Origin: a virus
Virus record (IMG/VR): IMGVR_UViG_3300033149_002833
Location: 1-25,343 of that record
Reading direction: 5' to 3' (one strand)
DNA length: 25,343 nt
Part shown: in pieces, positions 2,203 through 25,343 of the stretch
Layout: each line of letters opens with the position of its first letter
Numbering within the stretch: the first letter of the stretch is position 1
Program-made: the position numbers and the translations under genes
The notes under the pieces: model-generated
Told to the model about the DNA's origin: nothing
Database searches by the model: none
What the model saw: the letters and a program-made list of their open reading frames with translations, nothing else

Positions 2203-2925
2203 CTAAAACTTGTATTCTTTCAATCCACCTTCGAACCACGCCTTTAGCGCTGCCTTCTCAATTTTCGTCCAAGAAGCACAATCCAGTACTTTTTTTCTAT
2301 ATTTTTCCGATAGCTTATTGATATTCTGCTGAATCTCTTTTGTGCAACCTCTTTTGACAATATTGGCCATTTTAGAAAAACCTAAACAATGATATTTTTC
2401 GAGCCACCATTTTCTCTCAAAGCCATCATTGCTACTAAATCTTATTAGCTTACAGGTTAATTTCCCTATCTTTGAATAATCAAAAATCAATGGAATATAC
2501 AGCTCGTCTGTGTTGATGCATCCGCCGTCTGTGTCGATGCCGCCGCCGTGTGTGTCGATGTATCCACCGTCTGTGTTGATGTATCCGCCGCCTGTGTAGA
2601 TGTATCTGCCGTCTGTGTCGATGTGTCCACCGCCTGTGTAGATGCCGCCGCCGTGTGTGTTGATGCATCCGCCGTCTGTGTCGATGCCGCCGCCGTGTGT
2701 GTTGATGTATCCGCCGTGTGTGTCGATGTTTTTGCATCGCAGTGATGTCTCTTTTATTACAAGGGCTGCACAATTTATATCACCCTTAACTTCAACAACC
2801 TCACTTTTGGCAGTAAATATAATTTTGCCGTCAAATTCTAAGTTGCCTTTAATTTTTTTGCTTTTAATGATTCTTTCTTTCATATTAAGTATCCTTTTTA
2901 AGGTTTTCTCTGCCGGCAAATCCAT
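2203..2925 (-). CDS. Heptapeptide-repeat (beta-solenoid-like) protein of unknown function
   Basis: The protein has three parts. An N-terminal segment (IKGNLEFDGKIIF, VVEVKGDINCAALVI) has the alternating hydrophobic pattern of bactofilin or beta-helix strands. A central block of about ten heptads with consensus G-G-x-I-x-T-x follows, encoded by an almost perfect 21-bp tandem repeat. The C-terminal 95 residues are Lys/Trp-rich and look helical. I infer a small beta-solenoid; no family is recognised. Start choice is open: an ATG at 2925 overlaps the previous stop (TAATG), a TTG at 2931 lies 6 bases from AAGGAG, and an ATG at 2883 has its own AAGGA. It sits among replication and recombination genes. 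Confidence 0.65.
   Translation of the reverse strand: MDLPAEKTLKRILNMKERIIKSKKIKGNLEFDGKIIFTAKSEVVEVKGDINCAALVIKETSLRCKNIDTHGGYINTHGGGIDTDGGCINTHGGGIYTGGGHIDTDGRYIYTGGGYINTDGGYIDTHGGGIDTDGGCINTDELYIPLIFDYSKIGKLTCKLIRFSSNDGFERKWWLEKYHCLGFSKMANIVKRGCTKEIQQNINKLSEKYRKKVLDCASWTKIEKAALKAWFEGGLKEYKF
2506..2736. repeat. 21-bp minisatellite, ten full units plus one degenerate
   Basis: Units of exactly 21 bp start at 2506, 2527, 2548 and so on to 2695, with a degenerate unit at 2716-2736. The plus-strand consensus is GTSTGTGTNGATGNNTCCGCC. Units 1-3 (2506-2568) and 8-10 (2653-2715) form a higher-order 63-bp duplicate differing at three positions. Because 21 is a multiple of three, several frames remain open across it on both strands; only the minus frame with flanking non-repeat domains looks genuine. 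There are no spacers, so it is not CRISPR. Confidence 0.9.
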
Positions 2926-3170
2926 TACCAATCCAAACTCCTTTTAAGTCTGGCTTCGCACTCGTCTAATTCCTCAAACGGTACGCCGAGGAAAGCAAGT
3001 TCGAGCCTGTGCGACCATATAAATAAAGTGCGAATATCTTCACGCCGCCAAAGTTCCAGTAGTCTCATCAATTCTTCGGACGTTATTTGCGAAGGTGTGC
3101 CTTTTTTATTGCACAACCTGGCTAATAATCGCTTTAGAATTGTTAGTTCACGTCCTTGTTTGAAATGCAT
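2925..3170 (-). CDS. Hypothetical small helical protein (81 aa)
   Basis: A Leu/Arg/Glu-rich, probably all-helical protein (LTILKRLLARLCNKKG, ITSEELMRLLELWRREDIRTLF, FEELDECEARLKRSL). The ATG at 3170 lies 6 bases from AAAGGA and is preferred to an in-frame TTG at 3176 that overlaps the preceding stop. Its own stop overlaps a candidate start of the repeat protein (TAATG). No family is recognised. Position in the operon suggests an accessory role in early DNA metabolism. Confidence 0.6.
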   Translation of the reverse strand: MHFKQGRELTILKRLLARLCNKKGTPSQITSEELMRLLELWRREDIRTLFIWSHRLELAFLGVPFEELDECEARLKRSLDW

Positions 3171-7105: not shown

Positions 7106-7321
7106 TCAAATTTCTACACCTTTTGCTAAAGCCAAATTGTATTTGTATTGGCGCCCATCACGCATCGATACTATTGCCCAAGGAACACCTGCCATTTGGC
7201 CAGATTCCATTACAACTTCAATACTTGTGATATTTGTATTTATTCCTGCTCTTATTGTTTCTTCATCGTTTGGCCAAAAAATTGCTTGAAGTTCCTGGCC
7301 ATCAAAAAACATTCTTGACAT
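7106..7321 (-). CDS. Hypothetical small protein (71 aa)
   Basis: A 71-residue protein rich in beta-type segments (MFFDGQELQAIFW, ITSIEVVMESG, VPWAIVSMRDGRQYKYNLA). The ATG lies behind AAAGGAG. It is the first gene to the left of the structured non-coding block and could be translated from the same transcript. No known family is recognised. Confidence 0.55.
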   Translation of the reverse strand: MSRMFFDGQELQAIFWPNDEETIRAGINTNITSIEVVMESGQMAGVPWAIVSMRDGRQYKYNLALAKGVEI

Positions 7322-7344
7322 TTCGGCTCCTTTCCAAAAGAAAA

Positions 7345-7946
7345 GGCGGTGGCCGCTGGAACATCCAGCTATAACCCGCGACTAAATTAACCATACATTG
7401 TGAGTTTAGTATTCATTTAGTTTCGCCACCGCCATATTCACTATAGAGTGCAAAGGGCGGTATTCAATTTGGTTTCGCTGGCCATCCGCTGCGATTGATT
7501 CCAGCCCAAATCTTTCCCGCCACGATAAGCCTTGTCGCAGACCCAGAGGGATTCTCGTTATTGCACTCTCTTAACTTTTCAAATAACCGACGGGCAGTTT
7601 TCCTTCTGCTCAACTGTTTTTGCCAGGCTGGCACAGTTGCCTTCTAAGGGTTTGATTCGCCGGTTATAATTAACTTTTCAAACAGGTGGCGGCTCTTAGT
7701 TGTGGAGACCGAAAGTGCCCTCTTTGACTGACATTTTCTTGTTTTGAGCCGCCACCATTTTAGGGAAAAAATTATGTGCCAGTGATTTAGCCCTCTTGCT
7801 GGCTTAGGTTTAATCACAAGCCGCCGCCATACAGGCCAGCGGCTTCGGAGGAGGGATAATTGCACCAGCATACCTGTATTGCTGGCTTTTTATCAACTTT
7901 TCAATGAACTATTTATTAAAGGCGGCTGAGCCATCCATAGCCCAAT
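7345..7946 (-). ncRNA. Candidate large structured RNA (about 600 nt, many inverted repeats)
   Basis: There is no convincing gene between 7322 and 7946. Instead the block holds a dense series of inverted repeats: 7919-7926/7957-7964 (8 bp), 7865-7873/7876-7885, 7818-7824/7839-7845 (7), 7778-7782/7799-7803 (5), 7685-7695/7746-7756 (11), 7583-7589/7661-7667 (7) enclosing 7611-7625/7629-7639 (6+5 with a bulge), 7445-7453/7561-7569 (9) enclosing a bulged 11-bp stem and a possible pseudoknot, and 7345-7353/7425-7433 (9) enclosing two 6-bp hairpins. On the minus strand the last stem is followed by TTTTCTTTT. The linker TTGAAAAGTT recurs three times between stems. I infer a transcribed RNA in the operon direction; the class is unknown, and ROOL/GOLLD-type phage RNAs are the obvious comparison. 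Confidence 0.45.
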
Positions 7947-8141
7947 TTAATCCGTTGCCGCCTTATGTCCTTTGGCGTCTTCAGCACGCCAATCGTCAAA
8001 GGTAGTCCTGTCCCACTTCAGCACCCCGCCGATTTCCCTGCGTGGCGGTAGTTCATCTTTGTGTAAATACACCCAAGCGACTGATTGGCCCATAATTTTA
8101 GCCACATCTTCGACTCCGTAGTATTGACATTCAATTTCCAT
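7947..8141 (-). CDS. Excisionase/AlpA-type helix-turn-helix protein (64 aa)
   Basis: A small MerR-like HTH typical of excisionase/AlpA proteins: YYGVEDVAKIMGQSVAWVYLH (helix-turn-helix), then a short wing with LKWDRTTFDDW. Such proteins bind DNA and act as recombination directionality factors or regulators. TATAGGAG precedes the ATG. Its last codons overlap the outermost stem of the candidate structured RNA. It is second in the unit that begins at the promoter near 8411. No integrase is visible here, so a regulatory role is as likely as excision. Confidence 0.75.
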   Translation of the reverse strand: MEIECQYYGVEDVAKIMGQSVAWVYLHKDELPPRREIGGVLKWDRTTFDDWRAEDAKGHKAATD

Positions 8142-8410: not shown

Positions 8411-8438
8411 ATTATAGTAATTCACACACAAAAGTCAA
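8411..8438 (-). promoter_or_regulatory. Sigma70-type promoter for the early unit
   Basis: On the minus strand TTGACT (8438-8433) is followed, after 16 bases, by a perfect TATAAT (8416-8411). The lipoprotein ATG lies about 34 bases downstream with AGGAG in between. A hairpin terminator lies just upstream (8553-8598), so this promoter opens a new transcription unit running left. Confidence 0.75.
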
Positions 8439-8552: not shown

Positions 8553-8598
8553 GGGTAAAACCCTTGCGCCCCGCCAACGAGGCAAGGGCGCAAAAGGG
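8553..8598 (-). terminator. Hairpin terminator after the small-gene cluster
   Basis: Stem TTGCGCCC/GGGCGCAA (8564-8571 with 8586-8593) is extended by ACCC/GGGT across a two-base bulge. In the minus direction it is followed by a short T run (8557-8560 complement). It lies just behind the stop of the 52-residue gene and upstream of the next promoter. Confidence 0.55.
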
Positions 8599-8606
8599 TA
8601 AAAAAC

Positions 8607-8765
8607 TCATTTGTATTTCGGACAAATACCTGCCGTAGCTAATTGTTTGGCCGAATACATATCCTTTACGTTCACATACTTATCATTTTGCCTTAACCCA
8701 ACTTTTTCCATATCGGCCAATAGTCGTTTAATGGCTCTATCTTCTTTTGTATTGTGTTTGTTCAT
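8607..8765 (-). CDS. Small hypothetical protein (52 aa), last of four repeated-leader genes
   Basis: A 52-codon frame starting MNKHNTKEDRAIKRLLADME and ending AGICPKYK. It is highly charged and probably helical. The ATG follows TGAAAGGGTAAAAAA, the same leader core that precedes three neighbouring small genes. That shared leader is the best evidence that it is real. Function unknown; small early phage proteins of this kind often act on host machinery, which is only a possibility here. Confidence 0.55.
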   Translation of the reverse strand: MNKHNTKEDRAIKRLLADMEKVGLRQNDKYVNVKDMYSAKQLATAGICPKYK

Positions 8766-8782
8766 TTTTTTACCCTTTCAGT
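8766..8782 (-). promoter_or_regulatory. Repeated leader copy D (short)
   Basis: Core TGAAAGGGTAAAAAAATG before the 52-residue gene. It overlaps the stop codon (TAA) of the 76-residue gene upstream and lacks the AACTTTATTAACTT extension seen in copies B and C. Confidence 0.6.
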
Positions 8783-9000
8783 TTTAGTTTCGGGTGATAT
8801 ATATGCAAGGTAGCCGGAAGGTGCTGAAGTGTCAGTGCTTGTCGGAACTCAGCCCGCAATTGCCGCCGCAACGCCGCTTTGTTTTCATAGTTAATAACTA
8901 TATCTATATCACCGCTACCGGAGCCGTGTCTGTGAATCACAGTAGCGCCGGCGTTTCTAAGAATTTTATCTATAACATCTTTTGCCTGTTCAGCTTTCAT
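8770..9000 (-). CDS. Hypothetical protein with GSGSGDIDIVI motif (76 aa)
   Basis: A 76-residue protein containing HRHGSGSGDIDIVINYENKAALRRQL. The GSGSGDIDI stretch is reminiscent of the GSxxxGxxSDIDL active site of nucleotidyltransferases, but the protein is far shorter than any known active member, so this may be coincidence. The ATG follows the repeated leader GAAAGGGTAAAAA. The stop codon is inside the leader of the next gene, so the two are closely coupled. Confidence 0.6.
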   Translation of the reverse strand: MKAEQAKDVIDKILRNAGATVIHRHGSGSGDIDIVINYENKAALRRQLRAEFRQALTLQHLPATLHIYHPKLKLKG

Positions 9001-9034
9001 TTTTTACCCTTTCAAGTTTAAGTTAATAAAGTTT
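9001..9034 (-). promoter_or_regulatory. Repeated leader copy C
   Basis: Reads AAACTTTATTAACTT, then a short spacer, then TTGAAAGGGTAAAAAATG before the 76-residue gene. The first 15 bases are identical to copy B. An imperfect palindrome (TTAACACCC/GGGCGTTAA) lies just upstream at about 9031-9072. Confidence 0.65.
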
Positions 9035-9068
9035 AACGCCCAATAACCTCGGCCGGTGTTGTGGGGTG

Positions 9069-9251
9069 TTAAGCATTGCCTAAAGCGCGGTCGGCTATTG
9101 TTAGAGCATCAGAATATCGGCCGGTTTGTATGGCTAACTGAATTTTACGACTGATTTTTGTTGGCAAAAAAGACGCATCATCGTGAGCCGCGTCATAATT
9201 TTTGTGCTTGATGTCCTGGATAATGCTGATTAGCAAATTGGTATTGTTCAT
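9069..9251 (-). CDS. Small hypothetical protein (60 aa)
   Basis: A 60-residue, probably all-helical protein (LLISIIQDIKHKNYDAAHDDA, IQLAIQTGRYSDALTIADRAL). The second half looks like a single tetratricopeptide-type helical hairpin. It is preceded by repeated leader copy B. No family recognised. Confidence 0.6.
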   Translation of the reverse strand: MNNTNLLISIIQDIKHKNYDAAHDDASFLPTKISRKIQLAIQTGRYSDALTIADRALGNA

Positions 9252-9285
9252 TTTTTTACCCTTTCAATAAAAGTTAATAAAGTTT
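9252..9285 (-). promoter_or_regulatory. Repeated leader copy B
   Basis: Reads AAACTTTATTAACTT, then TTATTGAAAGGGTAAAAAAATG before the 60-residue gene. Shares 15 identical bases plus the ribosome-binding core with copy C. Confidence 0.65.
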
Positions 9286-9323
9286 CAACACTCATTAGGT
9301 TCGTTGGACCCTGGCCAAGACAA

Positions 9324-9563
9324 TCAAGAGATATACCACTTGCGGGATTGATTTTGTGCTATAGTCTTATGCACAGGGATAAAACCGGCAGCCGAAATAA
9401 CTATATTCGCAAACTTTTGAACCAGGCCCGTCGGAAATTTGTGTAGCTTCCAGGGGGACTCAAACTTTATTTTTATGTCGGCAGGTTTTAAGTGGTGGTG
9501 GTTAGCGATAACAGTTTTGACTTCTCTAACGAGTTCCGGCCTTGTGTAATAGCCATTTTTCAT
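9324..9563 (-). CDS. Small hypothetical protein (79 aa), first of four repeated-leader genes
   Basis: A basic 79-residue protein with MKNGYYTRPELVREVKTVIANHHHLKPADIKIKF and FANIVISAAGFIPVHKTI. It is probably alpha/beta and soluble. It follows repeated leader copy A and an AT-rich region that probably contains the promoter of this small unit. No family recognised. Confidence 0.6.
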   Translation of the reverse strand: MKNGYYTRPELVREVKTVIANHHHLKPADIKIKFESPWKLHKFPTGLVQKFANIVISAAGFIPVHKTIAQNQSRKWYIS

Positions 9564-9594
9564 TTTTTTACCCTTTCAATTAAGTGTTAATAAT
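9564..9594 (-). promoter_or_regulatory. Repeated leader copy A
   Basis: Reads ATTATTAACACTTAATTGAA followed by AGGGTAAAAAAATG before the 79-residue gene. It is the most divergent of the three long copies but keeps the TTATTAAC and GAAAGGGTAAAAAAATG blocks. Confidence 0.6.
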
Positions 9595-9800: not shown

Positions 9801-9830
9801 AGAGAAGAGAAATGAAAGGAATAATATAAT

Positions 9831-10043
9831 TCAGTTCAGTTTTTTGTCTAAAAAAGTATATAAATTATATTGTTTTCCTTTTAATTTATTAAATTGTTTA
9901 TCAAGTTCAATACAATCTTCTTCCGGCAAGCTATTTTGCAATTTCCAAAACTCTTTTTCAAGGTCTGCTAAGTCCGCCCTCAGAACCATTAACTTGTGCA
10001 TTTTTTCATTCCAAAAATTTTGCTCACCTATGTCCATATCCAT
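9831..10043 (-). CDS. Small coiled-coil protein (70 aa)
   Basis: The sequence is Leu/Glu/Lys-rich with heptad-like spacing (MHKLMVLRADLADLEKEFWKLQNSL, ELDKQFNKLKGKQYNLYTFL). It overlaps the upstream possible holin by 20 bases and is the last gene before the late terminator. That position suits a lysis accessory or tail-fibre assembly factor, but the sequence alone does not decide. Confidence 0.55.
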   Translation of the reverse strand: MDMDIGEQNFWNEKMHKLMVLRADLADLEKEFWKLQNSLPEEDCIELDKQFNKLKGKQYNLYTFLDKKLN

Positions 10044-10305: not shown

Positions 10306-11103
10306 CTATGGTGATGCCGTATGTTCGTGGCCGCCAACAATAATACTTGAGGCGGCTATTGCATTACCGTTAATATCTTTAAGATTCTTACGCATTATCT
10401 CAGTTTCTGTACCCTTCTCTTTGAATATCAATACCCATTGGCTGCTATTACTGGTATCAATAACCGTATCAGCTTCTGCGATTTTTTTAGTTACCGTCAA
10501 ATCGGCCTGCAGTGCAGCAAGTTGTGCATCTATATCGCTATCATCAGCAGGGTCATCTGGTAAATTATCTGTCTTGGCTTTGACAGCCGCTAAATCACCA
10601 TCACCGCCTGATTCTATCAATTTATCCATTGACGTTATACGTTCATATACGCTGTTGGGGCCACTTGGATATGGGATTGAAGTATCCAAACCCGTATAAA
10701 CAGCAGAATCAAGTTGAGTAGTTGCATCAATACCTTCTATCAAACCAACATCAACACGACCATTTGTATCTAAAACATATTCCAAAGATGTGCCATTCCA
10801 AATCATCTCAAATGAACCATCAAAGACATCATCATCCGCTGGACTAACCCCCACTTGTCTATAAATTTCAATCAATAATCGCTTTGCTGTATTTATTCCA
10901 TCGGGCATATCGACAGAAAACATACCATTGCCAAATGTTTCCGAAGCTGCAATGCCATAATCAGCAAGTGTTCTCCCGCCAGTATTCCACGCCTCAAAAG
11001 CAGCGGTTGCAGACGGCTTCCAAATCTTGTAACTGTCCTCAATATCTCTGATAGTTATAAAGTAACTATTGCCCGAAATTCGTCTGAACACTATCTCATT
11101 TGC
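10306..11103 (-). CDS. Phage tail fibre / baseplate-associated structural protein (265 aa)
   Basis: The N-terminal half (FRRISGNSYFITIRDIEDSYKIW, WNTGGRTLADYGIA, MFSVDMP) looks like a beta-sandwich. The second half includes a helical linker (DGDLAAVKAKTDNLP, DAQLAALQADLTVTKKIA) and a beta-rich end (WVLIFKEKGTETEIMRKNL, NGNAIAASSIIVGG). I read it as a trimeric fibre-type or capping protein, based on style and on its place between the beta-helix protein and the late end. The ATG at 11103 begins MANEIVF; the in-frame TTG at 11127 is less likely. Confidence 0.5.
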   Translation of the reverse strand, partial: ANEIVFRRISGNSYFITIRDIEDSYKIWKPSATAAFEAWNTGGRTLADYGIAASETFGNGMFSVDMPDGINTAKRLLIEIYRQVGVSPADDDVFDGSFEMIWNGTSLEYVLDTNGRVDVGLIEGIDATTQLDSAVYTGLDTSIPYPSGPNSVYERITSMDKLIESGGDGDLAAVKAKTDNLPDDPADDSDIDAQLAALQADLTVTKKIAEADTVIDTSNSSQWVLIFKEKGTETEIMRKNLKDINGNAIAASSIIVGGHEHTASP

Positions 11104-11127
11104 CATAATCAAAACCTTTTTCAACAA

Positions 11128-14197: not shown

Positions 14198-16654
14198 TTA
14201 TATTGCCAACCTATTAACTATAATACTTGCTTTTTTTGTTGATTGTAAACTTCTTGCCGGTATAATTTTTATTCTAACTGGATTCTTAAAATCAAAATCA
14301 TCAATTATTGATAACTCCTCTCGTTCATCATCTGCATCTAAAATTTTCTCAGCAATAAAAGTGCCATCAAGTTCCTCAATTTGTAAATGCACTCGCTCTA
14401 ATTCACTATCGGCTACATAATTGCCATAACCTAATCCCTCATTACCAACTAAATCAGCTTCGTCATCTCCCCATACCCAATTACTATCGAGAATATTATT
14501 ATAACCGCCGATATTAAACCCCCCTGTTTTGCTTGCCAAATACCAATCAATATCTACTGTTATTCCTTGATAATTTTGATAACCCTCTTTTTGCCATATT
14601 CGCAACAGAGAAGCCGGAGCAGGTCTTTTATATTCGCCGGTTATTGTGTGGCTATGTGCTGTAACATCCTCTAATTGCTGTATTGTTTCGCCATAATAAG
14701 TCAAAATCTTAAAGTATATTGTTTTACCAATATCTTCGGCATTATAAATATACGGAAATGCATCGCTTATTGTTACAAAAGTTTCGCCGACCGAATGAGC
14801 TACTGCATCAGTGTTGAACAAACCACGTATTAGGTTTGTTATTGTAAATTCATTTGTAGCACCTATTCTGTCAGCTAATTTATATGCGATAATCTCATTA
14901 CCAATTCTGGCTAACTGCCTGTTGTTGAAAAAATCCGCATCAGTTGCATCTTCTAACAATCCATAATCACCAACATCAACAACAAAACTATCAAGTGGCT
15001 TATGTATAACAGCAGGTTCCGCAGGCAATGCCGTTGACAAAGTTCCTTTTGTAGACGCTGTGTGATGTGTATCGAATTGTTTATAAGTTCCATTTTCCTG
15101 CCAACTATAATAAATAATCCACGCAGGGGAACCAGTCGCTTCGGCCGACCATTCGTCCTGTGGAATAATCGAGATACCTAAAATCGGTTCGAGCGGATGT
15201 TCTGTAAACTCAATCTCCGGACTGGTTAAAGTCGGCTCTTCTTGCTGTTCGTGTTCCGTAGTTGCAGAATCATAACTTACATTACGATACAAATATGGTT
15301 TGTCCTCGACTGCCTCGATTTGCAATAATTTTCCATTTTCAATTTCGTTAATTTTCAAAATACGTATCCGCTGCTCACTTATCATATATCCATCGGACAA
15401 AGTACCAACATCACCAACTCCAATACTCATTGACTTGTAACTTAATGTAAATGTGTAAAACTTAAACCGGTATAAGTTTTCAAACAATTGTCGATAAGCC
15501 ATTTCCTGAGCAAGCGTTGAATTTGTAATGCCATCCATTTGTATATTTTTAGACCTGATTTTGCCTGTTGCTCTTTGGTATACCTCATCGCCAGCAGTAA
15601 CTGTTGATATATCGTAATTTTTATCACAATTTGACCACGCCAAAACAATTTTATTAACACTATCGTGAAAAGATTTCGTTTTAACATTAACAGGAGGCGG
15701 TGGGTTTTCGCCTTCGCTTACAACTAAGTCATCTCTTGTAATCTCAAAAACAGCTGATTCATCTCTATATGCGCCTAAACAAATTAGGCCATTGGACATA
15801 TAAACGTAGCCCTTAAAATGTGAACGTATATAATCAATCCAATCCCATATTGATTTTTGGTCATTAAGAACAAAACTAAAGTTATAGTCCTTCGCAGTGC
15901 AGTAATCCTTAATTATATTAAAGCTGGTATCATTAATAAAACTCTCAGGAATGCGGCCACCATACCGAACATTTGTTAATAAATCTCTTATTATCATTGC
16001 ACCATTACAGTCTATCGCACCACCTGCCCTCTCGACATTAGTTTCACCATAACCAGCCATAAGTTGAGGGTACGTCCAGCCTGACCGTGTTTCTTCTGTT
16101 GGGTTTATAATCCAAATGTTTTCAAAGTCCCAACCAGTAAATGTGCTCTGCGTCTGCATTTCTCTGGTTGTTTTACCTGTGCCTAAAGCACTAAAGATAG
16201 TTTCTGAAGTTTCTATATCCCAAAAACAGTTTGTTGCTGTTACATCCGAGCCTGTAACATCGCCACAAAATCCCCCAACATTTATCGACCCTGTTGGTTT
16301 ACCGGTCGAATAACAATTTACAAAATTTATTCTTGAAGCAACCGTTCCAACAAATCCACCTACGTTTTGAGCTACTTCTGTACCACCATTAACTTCACCA
16401 GTGGCATAACAATCAACAATATCTTCTGTATAACCAACACTTGGACTGATGGCTGCACCTACAAATCCACCCATACCGCTGCATCCTTCATCACTTGGAA
16501 CACTCAAATCACCTGTTGCATAGCATTTATATATGTTTGCACCAAAAATAACACATATAAATCCACCAGACCATTCTGTACCTTCTACATCACAAGAAGT
16601 CGAACACCAACCAATTTCCGAATCTTGGTCAGTAATATTGCATGAATTGTGGAA
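14198..16654 (-). pseudogene. gpJ/GTA-g15-like tail tip protein, C-terminal part (frame-disrupted)
   Basis: This frame has no upstream start of its own: it opens after a TAA at 16655-16657, and the first possible start codon is a TTG at 16507. Its first 200 residues finish the GLUG-type repeats (GGFVGTVASRINFVNCYSTG, VGGFCGDV, GWTYPQLMAGY). The rest is a conserved phage tail-tip protein (DLLTNVRYGGRIPESF, KSFHDSVNKIVLAW, ATGKIRSKNIQMDGI, IGVGDVGTLSDGYMI, ARIGNEIIAYKLAD, FTITNLIRGLFNTDAVAH), the part that contacts the host receptor in lambda gpJ-like proteins. Joining it to the 353-residue frame upstream by a -1 shift restores one protein of about 1150 residues. No slippery heptamer lies in the overlap, so a base lost by mutation or sequencing is most likely. 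Confidence 0.75.
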
Positions 16655-17646
16655 TTAGTAACATAAACCGCTAATACTGTGCATTCACTTTTGCCGTTTA
16701 TAGTAGGATTTTCTATTGTCAAATCTTGAATTACAGCACCTTCAATAGTGTCAAATATTCCGACACGATTTCTCTCAGGTCTATTTATAACTAAATTGGA
16801 AATTGTATGCCCACAACCATACAAGCCACCAGTAAATTTATATGGAGAAGTATCCCCAATAGGCAAAAATCCTTTTCCGCCGTCCCAACCAGAAGTCTCT
16901 GATGCATCAATATCATTTGCCAAATAATAAGTTGCAGATTTGTCAAGTTCAATATCTTGCAAATCGTTTACATCTAAAATAGCAATAGCGCCGGCAGGCG
17001 GAACAAATCCTTCATCAACTGGACACTTAACCTCAAATGTAAAATTCGGGATACTATCAGAATTTCCTAAATCATAATTCTCAAACCACGCACAACAAAG
17101 GTCTGGAAAATAACCATACTCATCTGCCGCATTTTCAGAGACGATTGTTGTTTGTGGATTTGTACTATTATCACCTGAATAAATTACAGCATCAGTTAGC
17201 TCAATCAGTTTTTTGTTTTTCCAGATGTTGAGAACTTCTGCCGGCCCTTCACAAATCCCAATTAGAAAACTGCGGCGATATCTTGTCTCCTTTGCCACAA
17301 GAACTTTTCGCCCACCACCTTTCCCCCCTTCTTGATAATGATTGATAGTATAAGGCACACTGTCGCCAAACCAAATAATGTTGCCAGCAACTTTCCGGCT
17401 GCCATAAACCTTCGCTACTGGTATACCTTTAGCCGCTGTTTGTATTGGGTATTTTGTAACGTCCGGAGCTGCAATATCATTTTTCTGAGGAAACAAATAA
17501 CTGCCTACCATTGAGCCAATCATAAACCCAACAGCACCACCAAACGAACTGCCTAAACCAACAGCAGCACCGAGTGGGCCGCCAATTATAGCCCCGCCAA
17601 TCCCCATTACTAACGGAACAACTGTTCTACCACTACGGCATCTCAT
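16585..17646 (-). CDS. gpJ/GTA-g15-like tail tip protein, N-terminal part with GLUG insertion start
   Basis: The first 50 residues are a Gly/Ala-rich hydrophobic segment (GIGGAIIGGPLGAAVGLGSS) ending in GSYLFPQKND, typical of GTA-type host-specificity proteins. Then come IPVAKVYGSRKVAGNIIW, FLIGICEGPAEVLNIWKNKKLI and IPNFTFEVKCP, all conserved in that family. From residue 222 a GLUG-type adhesin domain is inserted (DLQDIELDKSATYYLANDID, FTGGLYGCGHTISNLVI, VGIFDTIEGAVIQDLTIENP). The frame then ends early with an unrelated 18-residue tail. Its ATG overlaps the stop of the peptidase gene (ATGA). Confidence 0.8.
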   Translation of the reverse strand: MRCRSGRTVVPLVMGIGGAIIGGPLGAAVGLGSSFGGAVGFMIGSMVGSYLFPQKNDIAAPDVTKYPIQTAAKGIPVAKVYGSRKVAGNIIWFGDSVPYTINHYQEGGKGGGRKVLVAKETRYRRSFLIGICEGPAEVLNIWKNKKLIELTDAVIYSGDNSTNPQTTIVSENAADEYGYFPDLCCAWFENYDLGNSDSIPNFTFEVKCPVDEGFVPPAGAIAILDVNDLQDIELDKSATYYLANDIDASETSGWDGGKGFLPIGDTSPYKFTGGLYGCGHTISNLVINRPERNRVGIFDTIEGAVIQDLTIENPTINGKSECTVLAVYVTNSTIHAILLTKIRKLVGVRLLVM

Positions 17647-24724: not shown

Positions 24725-25343
24725 TTAACTATTATGTTTCAATACTAACTTAAAAACTTTATCATATTTTTCAGCAATCTCCTTAATGTTATGCCATTTT
24801 TTTGCCACTTTACGCCCATTACGTGCAAGCCGTGCTCGTAGTGCAGGATTTTCTACGAGCATCATTATTTTTTCCTCAATATCTTTTCTGTCTCGTTTTA
24901 TAAATAAACAGTTTTCTCCGTTTTCAAGAATCTCACCGTGAAAACCAACTTTAGTGCATAATACAGGAACACCACAAGCCAACGCCTCGGCTATAACATT
25001 CGAGCAACCTTCATTTACACTCGGTAAAAGTAAACAGTCAATTTGGTGATAAAACTTTGTAGGCATTTCATTATGCAATATCTGATTATAGCCTTGCAAA
25101 AGTTTTTTGCTTTTTACCTTATCCCAAAGTCTCACAGTAGCCTGAACATAATACTTATAACCTTTGTAGTCTATTCCTAAGTTCCAAATATTGCCTGCAA
25201 AACCAACCGTAAAATCCCTATCAAAAATAGGGTTTAATGGTTCAGGCGGCCTGAAAAGGTCAAGGTCAACTCCATTCGGAATAAGAAAAGTATTAGAATT
25301 AACCTTTTTCGCTATATCATAAAGCTGCCGATTTGTTGCTATT
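24725..25343 (-). CDS. GT4-type (GT-B fold) glycosyltransferase, C-terminal part, 5' end outside window
   Basis: The frame is open to the right edge (206 codons visible); the GTG at 25135 is internal. From the edge it shows IATNRQLYDIAKKVNSNTFL, then IPNGVDLDLFRP, then FTVGFAGN, a typical junction between the two Rossmann domains. Further on are LLLPSVNEGCSNVIAEALACGVPVLC, with the E-x7-E motif that binds the nucleotide sugar, and ENPALRARLARNGR near the C-terminus. It transfers sugar from an NDP donor to a glycan or lipid acceptor, unknown here. Ahead of the tail module it may be a phage-carried surface-modifying gene (serotype conversion) or host DNA at a prophage edge. Confidence 0.85.
   Translation of the reverse strand, partial: IATNRQLYDIAKKVNSNTFLIPNGVDLDLFRPPEPLNPIFDRDFTVGFAGNIWNLGIDYKGYKYYVQATVRLWDKVKSKKLLQGYNQILHNEMPTKFYHQIDCLLLPSVNEGCSNVIAEALACGVPVLCTKVGFHGEILENGENCLFIKRDRKDIEEKIMMLVENPALRARLARNGRKVAKKWHNIKEIAEKYDKVFKLVLKHNS

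Follow-up and report, generated by a model that had tools for sequence, protein, structure and literature searches.

A probable large structured RNA, modelled as a tandem chain of closed units, in the early operon of an uncultured phage

Two early genes of an uncultured phage flank a gene-free block that our analysis supports as a large structured non-coding RNA, probably transcribed, because its folding and inverted-repeat statistics stand out from those of shuffled sequence and coding signal is absent from it. The block belongs to the window analysed here, i.e. the whole 25.3-kb stretch of a virus record, and is best read, on the folding models, as about six closed units strung in tandem with UUGAAAAGUU(A/G)A linkers between them (Table 1). 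These units, with their linkers, end at a ribosome-binding site, which points more to a cis-acting RNA of the early operon than to a free-standing molecule of the ROOL/GOLLD kind. Our preferred reading, to which we give a probability of roughly 0.45, is that the block forms a non-coding segment of the sense-strand early message, made of about six tandem and mostly branched units that would act in cis, with the last of them (M7) gating the downstream genes.

Table 1. Coordinates of the block, its units and linkers, the neighbouring features and the other members of the long-loop stem descriptor (window positions unless a contig is named).
Feature	Position	Strand	Basis and remarks
Promoter-like TTGACT-16-TATAAT	8411-8438	minus	consensus scan, 11 of 12 consensus bases
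First small gene, 63 aa	8186-8377	minus	lipoprotein-like signal by eye; codon score +0.24
Excisionase/AlpA-like helix-turn-helix (HTH) gene, 64 aa	7947-8141	minus	Pfam HTH_17, E 1.3e-5, just below the curated cut-off
Structured block	7345-7964	minus (operon)	about 600 bases, between two early genes
Unit 1 (M1)	7919-7964	minus	hairpin closed by AAGGCGGC/GCCGCCUU
Linker UUGAAAAGUU, copy 1, then GA	7895-7904	minus	direct-repeat family
Unit 2 (M2/3)	7762-7905	minus	three hairpins; weakest unit alone, z -1.5
Unit 3 (M4)	7685-7756	minus	11-bp closing stem GGUGGCGGCUC/GAGCCGCCACC; z -3.6; mean pair probability 1.0
Linker UUGAAAAGUU, copy 2, then AA	7672-7681	minus	with the preceding CCGCCACC matched in L150 (the retrieval pattern itself)
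Unit 4 (M5)	7583-7667	minus	4-way junction, closing AUAACCGGCG/CGUCGGUUAU; z -3.2; mean pair probability 0.97
Linker UUGAAAAGUU, copy 3, then AA	7573-7582	minus	direct-repeat family
Unit 5 (M6)	7445-7569	minus	4-way junction closed by AGAGUGCAA/UUGCACUCU; z -2.9; mean pair probability 0.96
Unit 6 (M7)	7345-7433	minus	3-way junction, closing GGCGGUGGC/GCCACCGCC; z -3.5; descriptor match
U-run UUUUCUUUU, terminator-like	7336-7344	minus	sequence; 3' of the last stem
Shine-Dalgarno GGAAAGGAG of next gene	7327-7335	minus	directly after the U-run
Next gene, 71 aa, function unassigned	7106-7321	minus	codon score +0.30
Descriptor member, L005	4237-4312		
Descriptor member, L005	2507-2563	minus	
Descriptor member, L008	15858-15940		
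Descriptor member, L019	4054-4156		

The accepted genes of the window lie nearly all on the minus strand, in the order of a tail module (about 25-10 kb), a set of small genes and a replication/recombination module (5-1 kb) encoding Erf and a DnaD-like protein. The block begins about 450 nt downstream of a near-consensus promoter, co-directionally with the early operon, of which this promoter-like site is, from its sequence, the likely start; a terminator-like palindrome at about 8561-8599 was seen by eye and is not listed by the scan tool. The first-pass annotation had described the block as free of genes, and this was borne out by the two ORFs found inside it, both in one frame (7644-7871 and 7464-7634, 75 and 56 codons), whose codon log-odds of -0.17 and -0.03 bits per codon compare with +0.08 to +0.30 in the accepted small neighbours, and which returned no match from Pfam or from a tblastn search of 50,697 phage records. 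One boundary had to be corrected: 18 bases (7964-7947) are shared with the 3' end of the upstream HTH gene, and these final bases of the gene fall within the first stem of M1. The product of the 71-aa gene downstream is 44% identical to a protein in the phage contig L002. Upstream, at 8607-9587, four small genes form an array with a similar TTGAAAGGGTAAAAAAATG-type leader before each; the leader repeat is a 39-nt family (8751, 8985, 9237 and 9549) that resembles the TTGAAAAGTT linker of the block. Elsewhere in the window, a protein of the replication module repeats a glycine-rich motif of the INTHGGGIDTDGG type (2203-2931, minus strand), and an ORF resembling by eye the C-terminal part of a family-1 glycosyltransferase lies beside the head-tail genes (24725-25135, minus strand).

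The inverted repeats on which the block had originally been singled out are all present where they had been placed, including stems of 11 bp (7685-7695/7746-7756), 9 bp (7445-7453/7561-7569 and 7345-7353/7425-7433) and 7 Watson-Crick bp, or 10 counting G-U (7583-7589/7661-7667); a further stem of 8 bp pairs 7919-7926 with 7957-7964, and the TTTTCTTTT run reported at 7344-7336 of the minus strand was read correctly. The shuffle check proposed for these repeats also came out in their favour. Counting perfect Watson-Crick stems with at most 130 nt between arms, the block contains 33, 12 and 3 stems of at least 6, 7 and 9 bp, against means of 14.8, 3.8 and 0.24 in dinucleotide-preserving shuffles, none of which (0/400) reached any of these counts; among 77 further tiles of the window, two also reached the 7-bp count. 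The minimum free energy of the minus strand gave z -4.79 for 7345-7964 (60 shuffles) and -5.25 for the longer segment 7330-7980, with a window background of mean -0.55 and sd 1.1 (80 tiles of 620 nt on both strands, block-overlapping tiles included). The corresponding plus-strand values were -4.06 and -3.44; the plus strand must fold well to some degree because the inverted repeats are perfect. Fold stability and stem excess over shuffles, together with the absent coding signal, are thus the properties of a structured non-coding RNA that the block displays.

The architecture differs in part from that first suggested: the stems stand, and the models favour a chain of independently closed units over a single nested fold. 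An end-to-end helix closing the whole block (7968-7975/7334-7341), which appears in the minimum free energy structure, was dropped after 163 of 2000 shuffles did as well, i.e. it is not significant. Folded alone, M4, M5, M6 and M7 each beat their shuffles and M2/3 does not clearly do so, and the closing helices of M1 and of M4 to M7 are predicted with mean pair probabilities of 0.95-1.0. M6 is modelled with a long inner hairpin (7521-7456), its inner helices reaching a mean pair probability of 1.0. Between units, UUGAAAAGUU followed by (A/G)A recurs in three copies that start, reading down, at 7904, 7681 and 7582.

Among the units only M7 is clearly terminator-like, with a 71-nt loop far longer than those of standard terminators; a standard terminator scan reported nothing at 7345-7433, which is picked up only if this long loop is allowed. 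The GC stem of the last unit, the U-run and the Shine-Dalgarno sequence of the next gene recall the intrinsic terminators and attenuators that lie between early genes of phages, but the loop of M7 carries hairpins of its own and five further units lie upstream. The CCUUUUC strand formed by the 3' end of M7 and the U-run is predicted to be able to pair with the Shine-Dalgarno sequence, whose predicted accessibility is 0.71 with the whole of M7 and 0.20 with the 3' arm of M7 alone; it falls with a longer leader, to 0.45 when the entire block is folded and to 0.37 when folding starts at the promoter. Comparable anti-Shine-Dalgarno pairing was not evident by eye in L005, a contig related through Erf, or in L154, the viral contig described below.

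We used a descriptor (a GC-rich stem of at least 8 bp, a loop of 25-125 nt, a U-run, then a ribosome site and start codon) to look for similar arrangements. It matched six times in 285 kb of DNA from Erf-relative phages and never in the reversed sequence, two of the six being overlapping calls at one place in L005. This combination is rare but recurs in Erf-relative phages. An initial pass over 1.4 Mb had given 11 matches against 1 in the control; the 11 included one true tRNA and two duplicate-contig pairs, and those in L123 and L130 were coding by eye. The best match of an M7 covariance model among four loci was the L005 element, at 13.1 bits and E 0.54, which is not significant. Two of the contigs hold elements of some interest in themselves. 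In L005, seemingly the same hairpin of about 55 nt (GTCCCCGG...CCGGGGAC) occurs twice, at 2507-2563 and 9828-9881, possibly as a mobile hairpin. The L019 member (also L021 4631-4733) spans 103 nt; with its long closing stem and a hairpin like a T-arm, CTCGTTCAAATCGAG, it is tRNA-like to the eye but receives no call from ARAGORN or Rfam.

For the function of the block we infer the following route. The chain would fold during transcription, and M7, with its 9-bp stem, the U-run and then directly the Shine-Dalgarno sequence, would gate expression of the downstream early genes, either by partial termination, by means of a CCUUUUC anti-Shine-Dalgarno strand partly locked in the stem of M7 itself, or by both. 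The upstream units could provide spacing, be targets of processing, or bind host or phage factors, the putative partners of the RNA.

A pattern scan for CCGCCACC followed within 10 bases by TTGAAAAGTTAA retrieved a single viral contig (L150 as extracted, L154 as the whole contig). By our estimate about one chance match is expected for such a pattern, so the surroundings of the match matter. It is intergenic, between a 237-aa gene of unassigned function and small genes preceding a helicase gene, and on the sense strand four arms are predicted inside a 9-bp closing stem, AUGAGGCGG/CCGCCUCAU (z -3.5); next come an A/U-rich stretch with a Shine-Dalgarno sequence (AUUAUUUUAAGGAAAGGA) and an ATG. 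When the retrieval pattern was excluded, the alignment of the block to this element was equalled by 5 of 1000 shuffles on the minus strand and by 156 of 1000 on the plus strand. M1 is the part of the block most like it (0/1000 alone), and M7 alone is not significant in local alignment (328/1000) and reaches 0/1000 end to end when the U-run and ribosome site are included. An nhmmer search of 1.4 Mb did not recover the element with any unit of the block or the reverse, and covariance models of M5 and M7, built from single sequences, found nothing convincing in L154. The sequence comparison is suggestive of a relationship between the two, short of proof. Small matches to the same element in L025 and L012 look like coding sequence and were discarded.

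Closer relatives of the block were sought without success. Searches by blastn in phages and plasmids returned nothing relevant, and close homologues were found neither there nor in 155 genomes of the class and 395 of the phylum to which a Syntrophaceae MAG carrying a related Erf belongs; a single short class-level DNA match (G013) looks like coding sequence and was judged to be chance. The M6 model against the class genomes and a DNA search of the phylum genomes likewise gave nothing, both being searches without a positive control. Neighbouring genes led to no further copies either: loci reached through the downstream 71-aa gene (L002 and L003) have closely packed genes and lack the block, 26 loci reached through Erf all lack it, 17 reached through the gene at 10306-11127 have only a shared stretch, and the HTH gene and the tail protein (16585-17646) yielded no loci. 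The double-linker pattern occurs in 95 stretches, none with a closing stem between the linkers like that of the window, and the M5 stem pattern had no match. Negatives from the covariance models are weak, each model resting on a single sequence; since no alignable homologue turned up, the exact fold stays a prediction and a new class a conjecture. A 68-kb viral contig (L044) has TTGAAAAGTTG-type repeats scattered in large numbers along about 1 kb of its length.

ROOL and GOLLD RNAs often lie close to tRNA genes and have several domains supported by covariation, together with pseudoknots and oligomer contacts. The block is like them in being hundreds of nucleotides long, gene-free, multi-branched and phage-borne, and membership of one of these classes had been put forward in the first-pass annotation. 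It is not supported: the Rfam check with covariance models was run, ROOL and GOLLD included, and the block had no match at the gathering score, at E 5 or even at E 10, yet Rfam 15 holds both families, whose models are part of that database (PMC12286853). The block differs from them also in its make-up, as separately closed units in a chain that ends at a ribosome-binding site, and in the lack of a tRNA gene, none being found in the 25-kb window, which is a contig fragment. One tRNA-Met (CAT) each was seen in three Erf-relative loci (L004 7091-7165, L005 10305-10373 and L008 20259-20332). Vibrio phage ICP1, which has no tRNA genes, is reported to produce an abundant orf-less transcript of about 800 nt between gp139 and gp140 (PMC7567579), a similarly large orf-less segment in a tRNA-free setting, but from a different phage, and the block has no nucleotide similarity in the phage collection. 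The group of the c4 antisense RNA (RF01695), small regulatory RNAs of P1, P7, N15 and P4 (PMC7567579), offers another likeness, a structured RNA within a phage regulatory operon; the block, in contrast, has no Rfam match to c4 or to other phage RNAs, and a search for long-range antisense pairing gave nothing significant (one 17-nt pair at 82%). The manA RNA (RF01745) is a candidate cis-regulatory RNA or riboswitch found in 5'-UTRs from marine samples and cyanophages (PMC2864571). The L150 element resembles it in its phage 5'-UTR setting and in having several hairpins enclosed by one stem, and scored 18.5 bits (E 0.012) with the manA model, far short of the gathering score of 55.2; the block of the window did not match this model. 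Similarly, the int-alpA RNA model had no match in the window; int-alpA RNA (RF02996) scored above gathering in two Erf-relative phages (L008 15240-15308, plus strand, and L009 3521-3586, minus strand).

The chief rival to our reading, in itself unlikely, is a free-standing, trans-acting large phage RNA comparable to ROOL, GOLLD or the ICP1 transcript, processed from the early transcript or made from a promoter of its own. Abundant large non-coding RNAs do occur in phages (PMC7567579, PMC12286853), and the size of about 0.6 kb, the multi-branched units and the gene-free block fit this kind; however, Rfam gave no match to ROOL, GOLLD, OLE or others at E 10, the window has no tRNA, no strong promoter lies directly upstream (the best matches within the block are 9/12), and the 3' end runs straight into a ribosome-binding site. 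An antisense RNA functioning from the plus strand is scarcely credible, since its z of -3.4 to -4.1 is weaker than that of the minus strand in both fold tests, no plus-strand promoter-like site is among those listed beside the block, and the plus-strand similarity to L154 is not significant.

The same plus-strand values are expected of perfect inverted repeats, which fold on either strand, and thus leave room for a function at the level of DNA. The TTAACTTTTCAA-type sequence, in three copies, could be bound by the HTH protein, or the block could be an attachment-site region or have built up from small palindromic mobile repeats. The HTH_17 gene immediately upstream, the three direct repeats of 12-13 nt and the hairpin element present at two places in the relative L005 are consistent with such a DNA-level element, which we nevertheless consider quite improbable given that the operon strand folds better, that the whole block resembles L154 significantly in the sense orientation alone, and that the ORFs examined in this contig fragment included no recognisable integrase-like gene. 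That the block is what remains in the operon of decayed small genes is very improbable, even with two ORFs persisting in one frame and a neighbouring small-gene array (8607-9563) whose TTGAAAGGGTAAAAAAATG-type leaders resemble the TTGAAAAGTT linker, because gene decay gives rise to no surplus of long, mutually compatible stems, and neither coding signal nor protein relatives were found.

Few large structured RNAs have been described from phages, most of them with functions still obscure. Beyond the cis-acting segment that we prefer, it is tempting to speculate on a new modular class of phage RNA, consisting of tandem closed units with 3- or 4-way junctions, a repeated UUGAAAAGUUAA linker and a unit number that varies (one in L154, about six here), the last unit docking at the ribosome-binding site that serves the following early gene; we regard this as rather unlikely. 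If the elements were merely hairpins punctuating an operon, they would be of modest interest. If true, however, the proposal would place a unit-repeat RNA at the head of an early operon, its unit number, linkers and output being separately testable with a reporter, and would suggest that such RNAs can grow by the addition of modules.
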